A program made the translations under genes and the position numbers. The notes beneath the pieces were generated by a model. The model had not been told where the DNA came from and ran no database searches. It saw only the letters and a program-made list of their open reading frames with translations. From Methylocystis sp. Sn-Cys (lineage in GTDB: Bacteria; Pseudomonadota; Alphaproteobacteria; Rhizobiales; Beijerinckiaceae), in the NCBI RefSeq assembly GCF_016745395.1, contig NZ_JAERVJ010000005.1, positions 124,001 to 188,000 on the forward strand: a DNA stretch of 64,000 nucleotides, given 5' to 3'. Below are positions 1,930-4,444 of this stretch, piece after piece; within the stretch, counting starts at the first letter, position 1; every line of letters starts with the position of its first letter.

Positions 1930-2760
1930 TCAATCGCGCAGCGACACGCCGACGACCATGCCGTCCTCGAACCAGCTCGCGAGAAATTGCGCAAGCCGCT
2001 CGGGTTCGATGTCGCCGGATTGCTGAAAGGCCGCCATTTGGCAGATGTCGCCGAAGGCGCGGCCGGCCCTGGCCTCGCAGAGCGCGACATATTCGGCGGG
2101 CTCCAGCTCGCGATAGGCCGTCTCTTCATTGCAGCGCCAGACCGCGACGGCTTCGGTCTCCTCTGTGCTCTGAGGCTCGGCGTCCCCTCCGTCCGCCTCC
2201 GCCTCCTCCGGCTCCTCGTCATCCTCCGCCGCCGCGGCCTGATAAGCCGCCAGAACGCCCGCCGGCTGCTCCAGCAGAATGAGGCTTGGATGGAAGTCGA
2301 AAACGAAGCGCGGCGAATCCTCGGGCGCAAAGCCCGCGAGCGCCTGTATCGTCAGTGGCTCGGCGTTCGGCGCGTCGAAAGCGTCGACCATGGCGCGTTC
2401 CAGAAAGGCCATGGCGATCGCGCGCGCATCGTCGCGCCAGGAGGCATGTTCGCGCATATAGTCCGGCAGGCCGGTCGTGTACCACCGGGCGTTGCGGCAC
2501 TGCGGCGGGTTGGCGGCCACATAGCCGCCGACCAGCGTCTCGAAGGCCTCGTCCCCGATCAGCGCGCGCAGGCCGGGGTAATCTTCATAGAGGAAGCTCT
2601 CCAGGCGAATGCGGTAGCCCGACTGATAGACATGCAGAAGCTCAGCCCGCTCGGCGCCGCGCTGCGACTCGCGCAGCTCCTTCAAAAGCGGCGCATCCGC
2701 GTCCCCTGGACCGCCGAGTATGCGCGCCTGAAACAGCGCCTGAAAGTCGGCGAGCTTCAT
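1930..2760 (-). CDS. DUF2063 protein, HvfC/BufC/MbnC-like partner of the RiPP enzyme
   Basis: A 276-residue protein. The N-terminal domain (roughly 5-100) has LADFQALFQARIL, LLHVYQSGYRIRLESFLYEDYPGL and FETLVGGYVAANPP, the DUF2063 signature. The C-terminal half has an acidic insert rich in E, D and A (about 178-205). In characterised systems (MbnC, BufC, HvfC) this protein forms a heterodimer with the DUF692 enzyme and helps present the precursor cysteine. Its ATG overlaps the stop of the DUF692 gene (ATGA), so the two are translationally coupled. It is the last gene of the four-gene RiPP set. Confidence 0.85.
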   Translation of the reverse strand: MKLADFQALFQARILGGPGDADAPLLKELRESQRGAERAELLHVYQSGYRIRLESFLYEDYPGLRALIGDEAFETLVGGYVAANPPQCRNARWYTTGLPDYMREHASWRDDARAIAMAFLERAMVDAFDAPNAEPLTIQALAGFAPEDSPRFVFDFHPSLILLEQPAGVLAAYQAAAAEDDEEPEEAEADGGDAEPQSTEETEAVAVWRCNEETAYRELEPAEYVALCEARAGRAFGDICQMAAFQQSGDIEPERLAQFLASWFEDGMVVGVSLRD

Positions 2761-3602
2761 GCCGCGCTCAACGCCTTTTCCGCGGCGATGCGCGCGTCGA
2801 TGTCGCGCATGCGCTGCAATTCTTCCAGAAGCTCCGAGAAGGGCGGGAAATTGTCGTCGCGTTCGATCATCGCCGAAACGTCACCGAAGCGGCGGCGGGC
2901 ATGTTCGTAGAGCGCCCAGACTTCCTCGCAGATCGGCTGGTCGTGGGTATCGACGCGATGCGTCTCGTGATTCGTGTGGCCCGCCATGTGGAATTGCACC
3001 ACGCGCTCGACCGGGACGGCGTCGATGAAGGCCACCGGATCATAGCCGTGATTGAAGCAGGACACGAAGACATTGTTGACGTCGAGCAGCAACAAACAGT
3101 CGGCGCGCTCGGCCATCTCCTTCACGAATTCCTGCTCGCTCATATCGGACGACACGAAAGAAACATAGGTCGATGCGTTTTCGACGACGAGCTGGCGCTT
3201 GAGATAGTCCTGCACCCGGCAGATGCGCTCGACGATGTGGTCGAGCGACTCTTTTGTATAGGGAATCGGCAGAAGGTCGTGCAACGAGAGGCCGTGGACG
3301 CCGGTCCAGGCGACATGGTCCGAGACCCAGGCCGGCTGCACGCGCTCGATCAGCGATTTCAATTCCGCAAGATAATCGAAATCCAGCGGATCGGTCGAGG
3401 CGAGCGACATGGCGACGCCGTGCATCACGATCGGATAATCGGCGCGAATGGCGTCCAGCATGGAGAGCGGGCGTCCGCCCGCGACCATGTAATTTTCGGA
3501 GATGATCTCGAACCAGTCGACGGGCGGCCGGTTCGACATGATCTCATCGTAATAGATCGGGCGGAGGCCAAGACCATAGCCGAGCGGGGCTGGCTTCTGC
3601 AT
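2757..3602 (-). CDS. DUF692 multinuclear iron enzyme, MbnB/BufB/HvfB-like
   Basis: A 281-residue TIM-barrel-type DUF692 protein. Visible candidate metal ligands match the family: HGVAMSL, SDHVAW, VVENASTYV, LLDVNNVF with FNHGYD, QFHMAGHTNHE, DTHDQPI and AMIERDDNFP. DUF692 enzymes use a di- or tri-iron centre and O2 to turn peptide cysteines into oxazolone/thioamide or thiooxazole groups that bind copper. The ATG at 3602 has AGGGGA about 8 bases upstream. Two small Cys-containing secreted peptides lie directly upstream and DUF2063 overlaps downstream, so the family role fits well. The exact modification made here is inferred. Confidence 0.9.
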   Translation of the reverse strand: MQKPAPLGYGLGLRPIYYDEIMSNRPPVDWFEIISENYMVAGGRPLSMLDAIRADYPIVMHGVAMSLASTDPLDFDYLAELKSLIERVQPAWVSDHVAWTGVHGLSLHDLLPIPYTKESLDHIVERICRVQDYLKRQLVVENASTYVSFVSSDMSEQEFVKEMAERADCLLLLDVNNVFVSCFNHGYDPVAFIDAVPVERVVQFHMAGHTNHETHRVDTHDQPICEEVWALYEHARRRFGDVSAMIERDDNFPPFSELLEELQRMRDIDARIAAEKALSAA

Positions 3603-3625
3603 GCGAACGTCCCCTGCCTAAAATG

Positions 3626-3652
3626 GGCGCCGGCCCCGAGGGAGCCGGCGCC
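3626..3652 (-). promoter_or_regulatory. GC-rich hairpin between precursor gene and DUF692 gene
   Basis: A 12-base-pair stem (3626-3637 with 3641-3652, one G-U pair) closed by a 3-base loop. It is followed on the minus strand by CATTTTAGG, so it has only a weak T tract. It sits 6 bases after the stop of the Cys-rich precursor and 23 bases before the enzyme start. A partial terminator or mRNA 3'-end stabiliser here would keep peptide expression above enzyme expression, as is common in RiPP operons. The function is inferred from position. Confidence 0.6.
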
Positions 3653-3658
3653 AAAACC

Positions 3659-3940
3659 TTACTTCGTGTGGCACTTGCTCTTCATGTTGCAAGCGCCCTT
3701 GCTGTGGTGGCAGGACGACTTGTGATGGCAGCCATGACGGCAGGAAGCCTTGCTCTTACCCACGTTGTGTTTGCAGACGCCGGTCTTGGTCATGCAGGCG
3801 GTCTTGCCGCCGCACTGGCCCTTGGACATGTTGCACAGATGCGAACCATGGGCGGCGGCGGGGGTGACGACGGCGCCGCTCAGCGCCAAGCCGACAGCCG
3901 CCGCGGCGAGCGCCGCGCCGGAAACGATTTTCGTCTTCAT
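3659..3940 (-). CDS. Cys/His-rich secreted peptide, bufferin-like RiPP precursor
   Basis: 93 residues. Residues 1-30 form a Sec-type signal peptide ending in TPAAA. The remaining 63 residues hold nine cysteines (36, 43, 49, 56, 67, 71, 77, 84, 90), nine histidines and many lysines, with almost no acidic residues. It starts with a near-perfect ribosome site (AAAGGAGG, 7 bases before ATG), consistent with high expression. Position before DUF692 and DUF2063 genes marks it as the likely substrate. In bufferins such exported, thiol-modified peptides sequester copper in the periplasm. The core is not the classic DUF2282 sequence, so family membership is inferred from architecture and context. Confidence 0.8.
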   Translation of the reverse strand: MKTKIVSGAALAAAAVGLALSGAVVTPAAAHGSHLCNMSKGQCGGKTACMTKTGVCKHNVGKSKASCRHGCHHKSSCHHSKGACNMKSKCHTK

Positions 3941-4016
3941 ACACTATCCTCCTTTGAAAACCCCCAATGGGGGGCGATAATCGGCGCGCGAATTGGCCTC
4001 ATGCGCCGAAACCGAA

Positions 4017-4250
4017 TTACTTGCCCTCAACTGGCTTGCCCTCGGCCGGCTTAGCTTCGCCCGCCGGCGCTTCCTTGCTCTCGGCCTTGGCCGGGCAGCC
4101 GTTCTTGTTGCTGCATTTGTTCTTCTCGACCGCCGCCTTGGGAGCGCGCTGGTGAGCCTTGTGCTTGGCCAGGGCAGGACCCGCGCCAGCAATTGCGATG
4201 GACAGCGCGGCGGCGGAAAGGGCAGCGCCGGAAAGGATATTCCGCTTCAT
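4017..4250 (-). CDS. Second small secreted peptide with a two-Cys core, candidate RiPP precursor
   Basis: 77 residues from the ATG at 4250, which has GGAG about 10 bases upstream; an upstream in-frame ATG lacks support. The signal peptide (1-28) closely resembles that of the Cys-rich peptide next door: both have SGAALxAAA. The mature part has a basic stretch, only two cysteines in NKCSNKNGC (46 and 52), and a K/E/P/A-rich tail with imperfect repeats (AGEAKPAEGKPVEGK). Two Cys six apart resemble the short copper-binding cores of modified peptides. It is probably the first gene of the operon and a second substrate. Alternatively it is an unmodified companion. Confidence 0.7.
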   Translation of the reverse strand: MKRNILSGAALSAAALSIAIAGAGPALAKHKAHQRAPKAAVEKNKCSNKNGCPAKAESKEAPAGEAKPAEGKPVEGK

Positions 4251-4444
4251 AAGCTTCGATCTCCAACTGGCCTCGCGCCCCGTCGCTCGCCCCGCAAGCA
4301 TAGACGTGAATATTGACCTCCTGCCTAGCTAGCAGGAATCGGCCCAGATTGCGACAGTGCGTGAGAACTTGCTCATACAACGCCGCCGCCGCCGGTCTTG
4401 ACGCAGCGCATCAACTCTCTCCGCGAGCGCGCGCATGGCGGCGC
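4251..4444. other. Divergent intergenic region between RiPP operon and rpsA
   Basis: No gene was found here. The minus strand must hold the RiPP operon promoter, but no convincing sigma-70 pair is seen, so an alternative (for example ECF-type) sigma factor is possible. A short inverted repeat, CCTGC-(7)-GCAGG, lies at 4320-4336 and could be an operator or a leader hairpin for the minus-strand operon. Confidence 0.4.

Follow-up and report, generated by a model that had tools for sequence, protein, structure and literature searches.

A histidine-rich, Buf2-related precursor candidate beside a BufB-type MNIO in Methylocystis sp. Sn-Cys

Two small secreted peptides precede a DUF692/DUF2063 gene pair at positions 1,930 to 4,250 of the analysed DNA of Methylocystis sp. 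Sn-Cys (contig NZ_JAERVJ010000005.1, positions 124,001 to 188,000; this whole stretch of 64,000 nucleotides is referred to as the window). The arrangement raises the question what kind of product is made by such an operon in a methanotroph, and for which metal. In a preliminary description a bufferin-like operon with an unusual nine-cysteine precursor was proposed. Considering the enzymes, the precursor and the relatives together, we judge it quite probable that this is a four-gene captophorin/bufferin operon, in which the precursor is a His-rich offshoot of Buf2 (BufA2) that acts as a periplasmic copper buffer.

The operon and its enzymes

The four genes of the operon are:
4250-4017, minus strand: second secreted peptide of 77 residues, a precursor candidate (open reading frame, GGAG before the ATG, relatives, dN < dS)
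3940-3659, minus strand: main precursor candidate of 93 residues with nine Cys and nine His, His-rich and Buf2-related (open reading frame, relatives, dN < dS)
3602-2757, minus strand: MNIO of the BufB type (DUF692), 281 residues (Pfam and NCBIfam models, ligand residues, tree)
2760-1930, minus strand: DUF2063 partner protein, PME-type 1 by its predicted fold, 276 residues (Pfam, ATGA overlap, predicted fold)

All four genes are intact and follow each other in this order. Those of the MNIO and the DUF2063 protein share a four-base overlap, ATGA, and the ATG of the 93-residue peptide is preceded by AGGAGG. The two small genes were subjected to a selection test in five species, chosen for having the nine-Cys form, where the rate of non-synonymous substitution (dN) was lower than that of synonymous substitution (dS) in all 10 pairs for both the 93-residue peptide (mature part: dN 0.007-0.12, dS 0.25-0.77) and the 77-residue peptide (dN 0.12-0.39, dS 0.80-1.79). 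Both are therefore real, constrained genes.

The MNIO matches PF05114 with 365 bits (cut-off 25) and passes the NCBI model for bufferin maturases, NF050167 MNIO_BufB (374.6 bits, cut-off 310), whereas it stays below the cut-offs of HvfB (274.8/360), ApyH (100.5/400), MbnB (83.6/325) and ChrH (55.6/600). The bufferin-like operon of the preliminary description, with two secreted peptides and overlapping DUF692 and DUF2063 genes, is thus borne out. Residues that match the iron ligands listed for VcMbnB in PMC8888699 are H61, H96, E141, D174, N177, H205, D218 and E247, the further His is H220 and the base is D249; the assignment was made by motif, and a phmmer alignment is in line with it. Directly after the base follows D250, forming an ERDD motif. 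According to the account given in PMC13097082, this position is Asp in the Cys-Lys/BufB2 enzymes and Phe in the Lys-Cys (EGKCG) group.

The DUF2063 protein matches PF09836 (59.9 bits, cut-off 27.2). A comparison with the PDB by sequence, with the protein alone or as a profile, gave nothing useful. Its AlphaFold model (pLDDT 86.6), for which the input was an alignment that joined this protein with 14 of its 22 identified relatives, has three fold matches in the PDB at E <= 0.001. One is the gonococcal DUF2063 protein 3dee (E 6e-5, TM by target length 0.73) and the other two are TglHI entries, 8hi7 and 8hci, each matched through its chain A. Since the DUF692 protein is chain D in 8hci, chain A is taken to be its partner, TglI. 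Judging from the modelled fold, the protein belongs to the PME-type 1 partners as defined in PMC12452194. It also carries an acidic low-complexity stretch around residues 180-200, where pLDDT falls below 50 for residues 184-197. The locus combines three features of the captophorin or MNIO-PME1 class, namely a bufferin-maturase MNIO, an adjacent DUF2063 protein of PME-type 1 and a Cys-rich precursor with a Sec signal before the MNIO. The characterised products of MNIO-PME1 pairs are described in PMC13097082 as carrying thiooxazoles and generally binding copper, and by analogy with these, thiooxazole formation and periplasmic copper sequestration would be the likeliest outcome here.

The precursor and its relation to Buf2

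Two signal peptides were delineated in the operon:
3851-3940, minus strand: signal peptide of the main precursor (MKTKIVSGAALAAAAVGLALSG...), similar in type to those of Buf2 precursors, with its end set by the AxA rule only
4167-4250, minus strand: signal peptide of the second peptide (MKRNILSGAALSAAALS...), with its end also set by the AxA rule only

The signal peptide of the 93-residue peptide, of the Sec type as judged by residue pattern, belongs to the most strongly conserved segments of the precursor. M1, K2, S7 and G8 are invariant, together with others, in an alignment of His-rich relatives (A1), and a second alignment (A2) has a similar pattern. A strict form of its motif occurs in 3 of 155 signal-like open reading frames in 464 kb of DNA from the same genome, a sample in which two stretches were chosen for holding the Buf2 genes concerned and in which the list of frames includes spurious ones. 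The three carriers are the 93-residue peptide, the Buf2 of a BufA2 locus on contig 8 (L002) and a Buf2 gene that stands alone (see below); the 77-residue peptide lacks the strict form. According to preliminary data mentioned in PMC12452194, recognition by BufBC involves the signal peptide, and that of the main precursor is likely a recognition element.

The likeness of the precursor to Buf2 is strong in the signal peptide, modest in the N-terminal Cys block and absent from the C-terminal half. With the NCBIfam BufA2 model, 13 of 16 His-rich members are listed at E <= 10 (best 1.2e-5), and all 16 canonical members match. Profiles of the mature parts align over CGGKxxCMTKxGVCKH in the His-rich peptides and CKGKSDCMTPKNSCKG in Buf2 (score 20.1, with 1 of 200 column permutations scoring as high). 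The profile of the 77-residue family aligns to the same Cys block about equally well (score 20.4; 1 of 200 permutations).

The tree of the MNIOs and the locus agree with this likeness. Sorted by precursor, 120 distinct MNIOs comprised 71 with canonical Buf2, 32 with a His-rich peptide, 12 with Buf1 and 5 without a recognised one, where the label His-rich requires a Methylocystis-like signal peptide and could miss other kinds. In the tree, made from the 54 representatives nearest to the window MNIO, all 32 His-rich rows fall within the Buf2-type MNIOs. The group beside the Methylocystis His-rich clade (L034, L035 and L079; support 89/85) has a six-Cys Buf2 before the MNIO, and the CMTPKNxCK stretch of these Buf2 peptides corresponds to CMTKxGVCK in the nine-Cys and Methylosinus His-rich peptides, a stretch no longer present in the short Methylocystis forms. 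Two changes of precursor are required on the MNIO tree, and a single origin of the His-rich type is not rejected (approximately unbiased test, p 0.259). Moreover, the DNA fetched for each of the 26 Methylocystis His-rich representatives, and for a Methylocystaceae metagenome-assembled genome (MAG; L074), encodes an S1 protein, and one is also encoded beside canonical Buf2 at L035 (85% over 106 residues) and L077 (93% over 388 residues). Over the stretch compared, the MNIOs of L077 and L034 are identical. Taken together, the 93-residue peptide probably derives from canonical Buf2, or has at least replaced it.

Several observations weigh against this reading and its extension to a modified copper buffer. 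Against the BufA2 model the peptide scores 6.7 bits, below the cut-off of 60. The match between mature-only profiles is weak by itself (probability 22.6%, 18 columns), and that between full-length profiles is strong (98.6%) but consists mostly of signal peptide; nothing in Buf2 corresponds to the His-rich C-terminal half. No S1 gene lies within about 4 kb at the canonical L079 or at the Methylosinus loci L075, L076 and L078, and in the list of open reading frames read around the operon no adjoining DoxX gene or regulator was seen. Finally, of 196 Cys in the 30 distinct His-rich peptides, 74 have His as the next residue and 19 have Lys, whereas in Buf2 Lys comes next after 290 of 579 (counts pooled over related sequences). 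The Cys-Lys dyad is mostly lost, and the turnover of each Cys is therefore uncertain.

The loss of Lys while the facing Asp of the enzyme stays could mean an altered choice of sites or a partial modification, and offers a natural case for the study of MNIO substrate choice, in which the residue after Cys has changed and the enzyme residue has not. The same loss would also suit a reading in which the 93-residue peptide is an unmodified, periplasmic metallothionein-like protein and the MNIO pair serves only the 77-residue peptide, the Buf2 encoded elsewhere in the genome, or both. The persistence of such an orphan Buf2, related to MNIO-linked ones elsewhere, in 26 of the 28 His-rich genomes of the genus fits this as well. 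However, in all 28 the His-rich peptide lies directly before the MNIO, it has kept a Buf2-type signal peptide and is constrained, and the 77-residue peptide was not found in 16 of the 26 Methylocystis His-rich representatives, so that we regard an unmodified product as distinctly unlikely.

The second peptide has 77 residues from the ATG with GGAG before it, or 94 from an earlier ATG. It contains two Cys as C-x5-C (a C-x2-K-x2-C module), followed by a tail rich in Pro, Ala, Lys and Glu. Relatives are present at the other 10 of the 26 representative loci and at 2 of the 3 canonical-Buf2 sister loci.

Distribution, orphan Buf2 genes and the copper systems of the host

A peptide of the 93-residue type directly precedes the MNIO in 28 of the 39 Methylocystis genomes, and a shorter version is found in Methylosinus (L041-L044, L075, L076 and L078). 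The precursor thus recurs at other DUF692-DUF2063 loci, a recurrence on which the preliminary description had made its case depend. Nine Cys, presented there as the unusual feature, turned out not to be defining: among the 30 distinct peptides the number of Cys is 5, 6, 8 or 9, and that of His ranges from 5 to 13. The 5-Cys peptide (L012) may be truncated, with a stop inside its match, and at L009 and L011 a nine-Cys and a six-Cys form stand in tandem. The MNIO of one genome of the genus (L016) is identical to that of M. rosea SV97 (L070) over the compared stretch.

Beyond the genus, an MNIO match was obtained in 56 of 149 genomes of the family sample, from which 30 loci were fetched; among those read, the His-rich type occurs only in Methylocystis and Methylosinus. 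A profile of 16 of the 30 His-rich peptides (A1) matched 29 of 397 genomes of the order, 27 of them outside the genus. Of these 27, 18 were seen as loci and the remaining 9 were not among the loci read; 16 of the 18 have the canonical Buf2 motif and L154 nearly so, and at L153 no peptide was found by the precursor filter. In 398 genomes of the phylum three matches at E <= 1e-4 were obtained, two from the genus and one a canonical Buf2. Among all loci read, the His-rich type is thus confined to Methylocystis, Methylosinus and the Methylocystaceae MAG. At L040/L145 a window-type pair of MNIO and DUF2063 genes (76%) has a possible remnant of a signal peptide upstream, and the precursor filter found no precursor. 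A Sphingopyxis MAG (L102) has an unusual repeat precursor before a BufB-like MNIO, a secreted peptide of 157 residues with 12 Cys in KADANKCKGAAGCKGDA-like repeats.

The genome of strain Sn-Cys also contains a canonical Buf2 gene at C8:92460-92717 (L170, L191; BufA2 model 93.5 bits, cut-off 60), of the CHSPKNACKG subtype and without an MNIO in the 3.3 kb fetched around it. Beside it lies a gene for a NuoB-like protein (NF005012 134.1 bits, cut-off 116). In the Cys region this orphan lies nearer to the Buf2 found before the window-type MNIO of G014, G016 and G004 (74, 68 and 66%, respectively) than to the second Buf2 of its genome (51-53%). In the 30 loci read across the genus, 26 genomes, all of them His-rich, have canonical Buf2 as an orphan whose fetched surroundings lack an MNIO; three of these loci end at contig ends and one (L216) has lost one Cys. 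The two remaining His-rich genomes, which were not read, are G020 (a partial match) and G029 (a 53% match only). In G001, G004, G014 and G016, none of which is His-rich, a window-type MNIO (73-79% identical) has a canonical Buf2 next to it. In Methylosinus, the four genomes that carry the His-rich type likewise have an orphan Buf2, again without an MNIO in the DNA fetched, and G140, which is without a recognisable precursor, has no orphan Buf2. A simple eviction of Buf2 from the operon is argued against by the motifs: all orphans have CH[ST]PKN and the four MNIO-linked peptides CMTPKN, and the two sets are therefore two subtypes. The occurrence of the CH form in both genera points to a single origin of the orphan. 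Orphans and pairs as such are already known: in PMC12452194 considerable proportions of the bufferin precursors are described as encoded away from MNIO genes, and precursors in tandem are mentioned as well.

The genome encodes five MNIOs, including that of the window. Contig 8 holds the BufA2 locus mentioned above (L002; 87.7 bits, cut-off 60) and a DUF2282 locus with DoxX (L003; 85.2 bits, cut-off 22.4). At L004 (C3:14447-18223) the MNIO gene overlaps the end of that for a TIGR04222 membrane protein (79.7 bits, cut-off 43), which has a Cys/Gly-rich tail. The fifth locus (L005, C17:57096-60833) encodes methanobactin enzymes, with MbnB at 449.9 bits (cut-off 325) and MbnC at 292.2 (cut-off 185), and a sigma factor that ends in an MbnA domain (NF040705 388.5, cut-off 350; TIGR04071 45.4, cut-off 24). 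The same fusion of sigma factor and MbnA has been described in two Methylocystis strains (PMC3621798). The earlier inclusion of MbnBC in the DUF692/DUF2063 pairs needs correction, for in this genome MbnC matches no Pfam family at E <= 0.01, DUF2063 included.

A PmoA-family gene is present in the genome, which agrees with the methanotrophic host envisaged in the preliminary description, and PmoA-family matches were found in 31 of the 39 genomes of the genus. Methanotrophs need much copper for methane oxidation, and their way of keeping it safe in the periplasm is only partly understood. A role in the supply of copper, as was suggested earlier, is less likely, given that methanobactin is encoded at a locus of its own. 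MbnB scores over its cut-off in 21 of the 39 genomes and is lacking in 9 of the 28 His-rich ones, and therefore the His-rich operon and methanobactin are not interdependent. A chalkophore, i.e. a released copper-scavenging peptide like methanobactin, would suit a methanotroph with a Cys-modifying enzyme of the same superfamily. Nevertheless, a Sec signal peptide where a methanobactin-type leader would stand, the distance of the MNIO from the MbnB model, the separate methanobactin locus and the 9 His-rich genomes without MbnB make it a very remote prospect.

A buffer for zinc, nickel, cobalt or a broad range of metals, with His added for borderline metals and few Cys modified, would account for the CHHK repeats and the 5-13 His of the relatives, and fusions to MerC as well as suggested roles for other metals are mentioned in PMC12452194. 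We hold it unlikely, considering that the lineages are methanotrophs, as the PmoA-family matches show, and that characterised relatives respond to or bind copper in the account of PMC13097082.

For the copper buffer that we favour, the following course may be envisaged. The precursor or precursors would be made in the cytoplasm and recognised, partly via the conserved signal peptide, by the MNIO-bound DUF2063 partner. The iron-dependent MNIO would then oxidise several, not necessarily all, of the nine Cys, most likely to 5-thiooxazoles, after which the peptide would be exported by Sec and lose its signal peptide. In the periplasm the thiooxazoles, leftover thiols and His of the CHHK type could bind and buffer the copper that the cell needs for methane monooxygenase and that the separate methanobactin system would fetch. 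A more specific proposal, to which we give a small though real chance, is that in Methylocystis and Methylosinus the canonical bufferin of this operon gave way to a hybrid ligand peptide, whose thiooxazole Cys and CHHK His form mixed sulphur/nitrogen copper sites and provide a periplasmic copper reservoir for particulate methane monooxygenase, perhaps with a Cu(II) site resembling a His brace at the N-terminus, and that the same enzyme may modify the orphan Buf2 in trans. The assumed signal cut precedes His in 23 of the 30 distinct relatives and Lys in 7, the pattern used allowing only these two residues after the cut.

The conserved His-rich bufferin variant, seen here only in methanotroph genera and commoner in the genus than MbnB over its cut-off (28 versus 21 of 39), is a candidate for the copper-holding side beside the fetching side formed by methanobactin. 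No paper on a His-rich bufferin of methanotrophs was found by title or abstract. Hundreds of other secreted precursors with 1-18 Cys are given in Table S2 of PMC12452194, and window-type peptides may be among them. The main text of a paper on the copper transcriptome of Methylosinus trichosporium OB3b (PMC12811070) makes no mention of DUF692, DUF2063 or DUF2282.

Neighbourhood and comparison with known systems

Two further elements were noted in and before the operon:
3626-3652, minus strand: G+C-rich hairpin between the precursor and MNIO genes (predicted stem)
4320-4336, strand not assigned: near-palindrome CCTGCCTAGCTAGCAGG, about 70 bases before the second peptide (sequence reading)

A hairpin of varying sequence is present at the equivalent place in many relatives, at His-rich and Buf2 loci alike. 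The fold z-score of the intergenic region, computed for the whole stretch against simple shuffles at 53 loci, is -1.9 here and between -4.6 and +0.6 at the others. As modelled, the hairpin might be an attenuator or a stabiliser of the mRNA, and possibly sets the ratio of precursor to enzyme. Ten loci were examined for the core of the near-palindrome, [TA]GCTAGC, and the DNA fetched for 7 of them contains it; the near-palindrome lies upstream of the second peptide in five loci; no tie of the upstream motif CTGCTAGC to any known regulator could be made. The divergent upstream neighbour encodes a protein with six S1 domains (PF00575), which is taken as ribosomal protein S1 (rpsA), and the downstream neighbour on the same strand an XdhC family protein (PF13478, PF02625).

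Compared with methanobactin (MbnABC), the operon shares the MNIO superfamily and a methanotroph host, and differs in having a signal peptide instead of the Mbn leader, another enzyme clade and another partner. An identity with methanobactin was rejected in view of the 83.6 bits of the MNIO against the MbnB cut-off of 325 and the separate Mbn locus. The oxazolin/fontiphorin (EGKCG) captophorins likewise combine a multi-Cys secreted precursor with an MNIO and PME1, but the window MNIO has Asp, not Phe, after the catalytic base; neither peptide contains EGKCG and the HvfB model is not reached, and an oxazolin/HvfA identity was therefore discarded. With Buf1 (DUF2282) the operon has in common a secreted Cys precursor before genes of the MNIO and DUF2063 type. 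It is not Buf1, since DUF2282 is absent from the Pfam matches listed up to E 10 and the DUF2282 locus of the genome is a separate one (L003).

The closest system is Buf2 (BufA2). BufA2 proper was rejected on the score of the precursor and on its Cys, of which there are nine and not the 6 or 12 conserved in BufA2. The peptide further lacks the CKGxGW and GG C-terminal part, has CHHK repeats, and its Cys are rarely followed by Lys. The earlier statement that the core is not that of a classic bufferin holds, as neither the DUF2282 nor the BufA2 model claims the peptide. The peptide is nevertheless not foreign to the bufferins and appears to be derived from, or to have replaced, Buf2. Indeed, the BufB-type MNIO with ERDD, the DUF2063 partner, the gene order and the type of signal peptide are the same, the Cys spacing is close (C-x6-C-x5-C-x6-C versus C-x5-C-x5-C-x6-C in Buf2), the CMTxxxxCK stretch is common to one Buf2 subtype, and the locus at the side of rpsA is shared with two canonical Buf2 loci.

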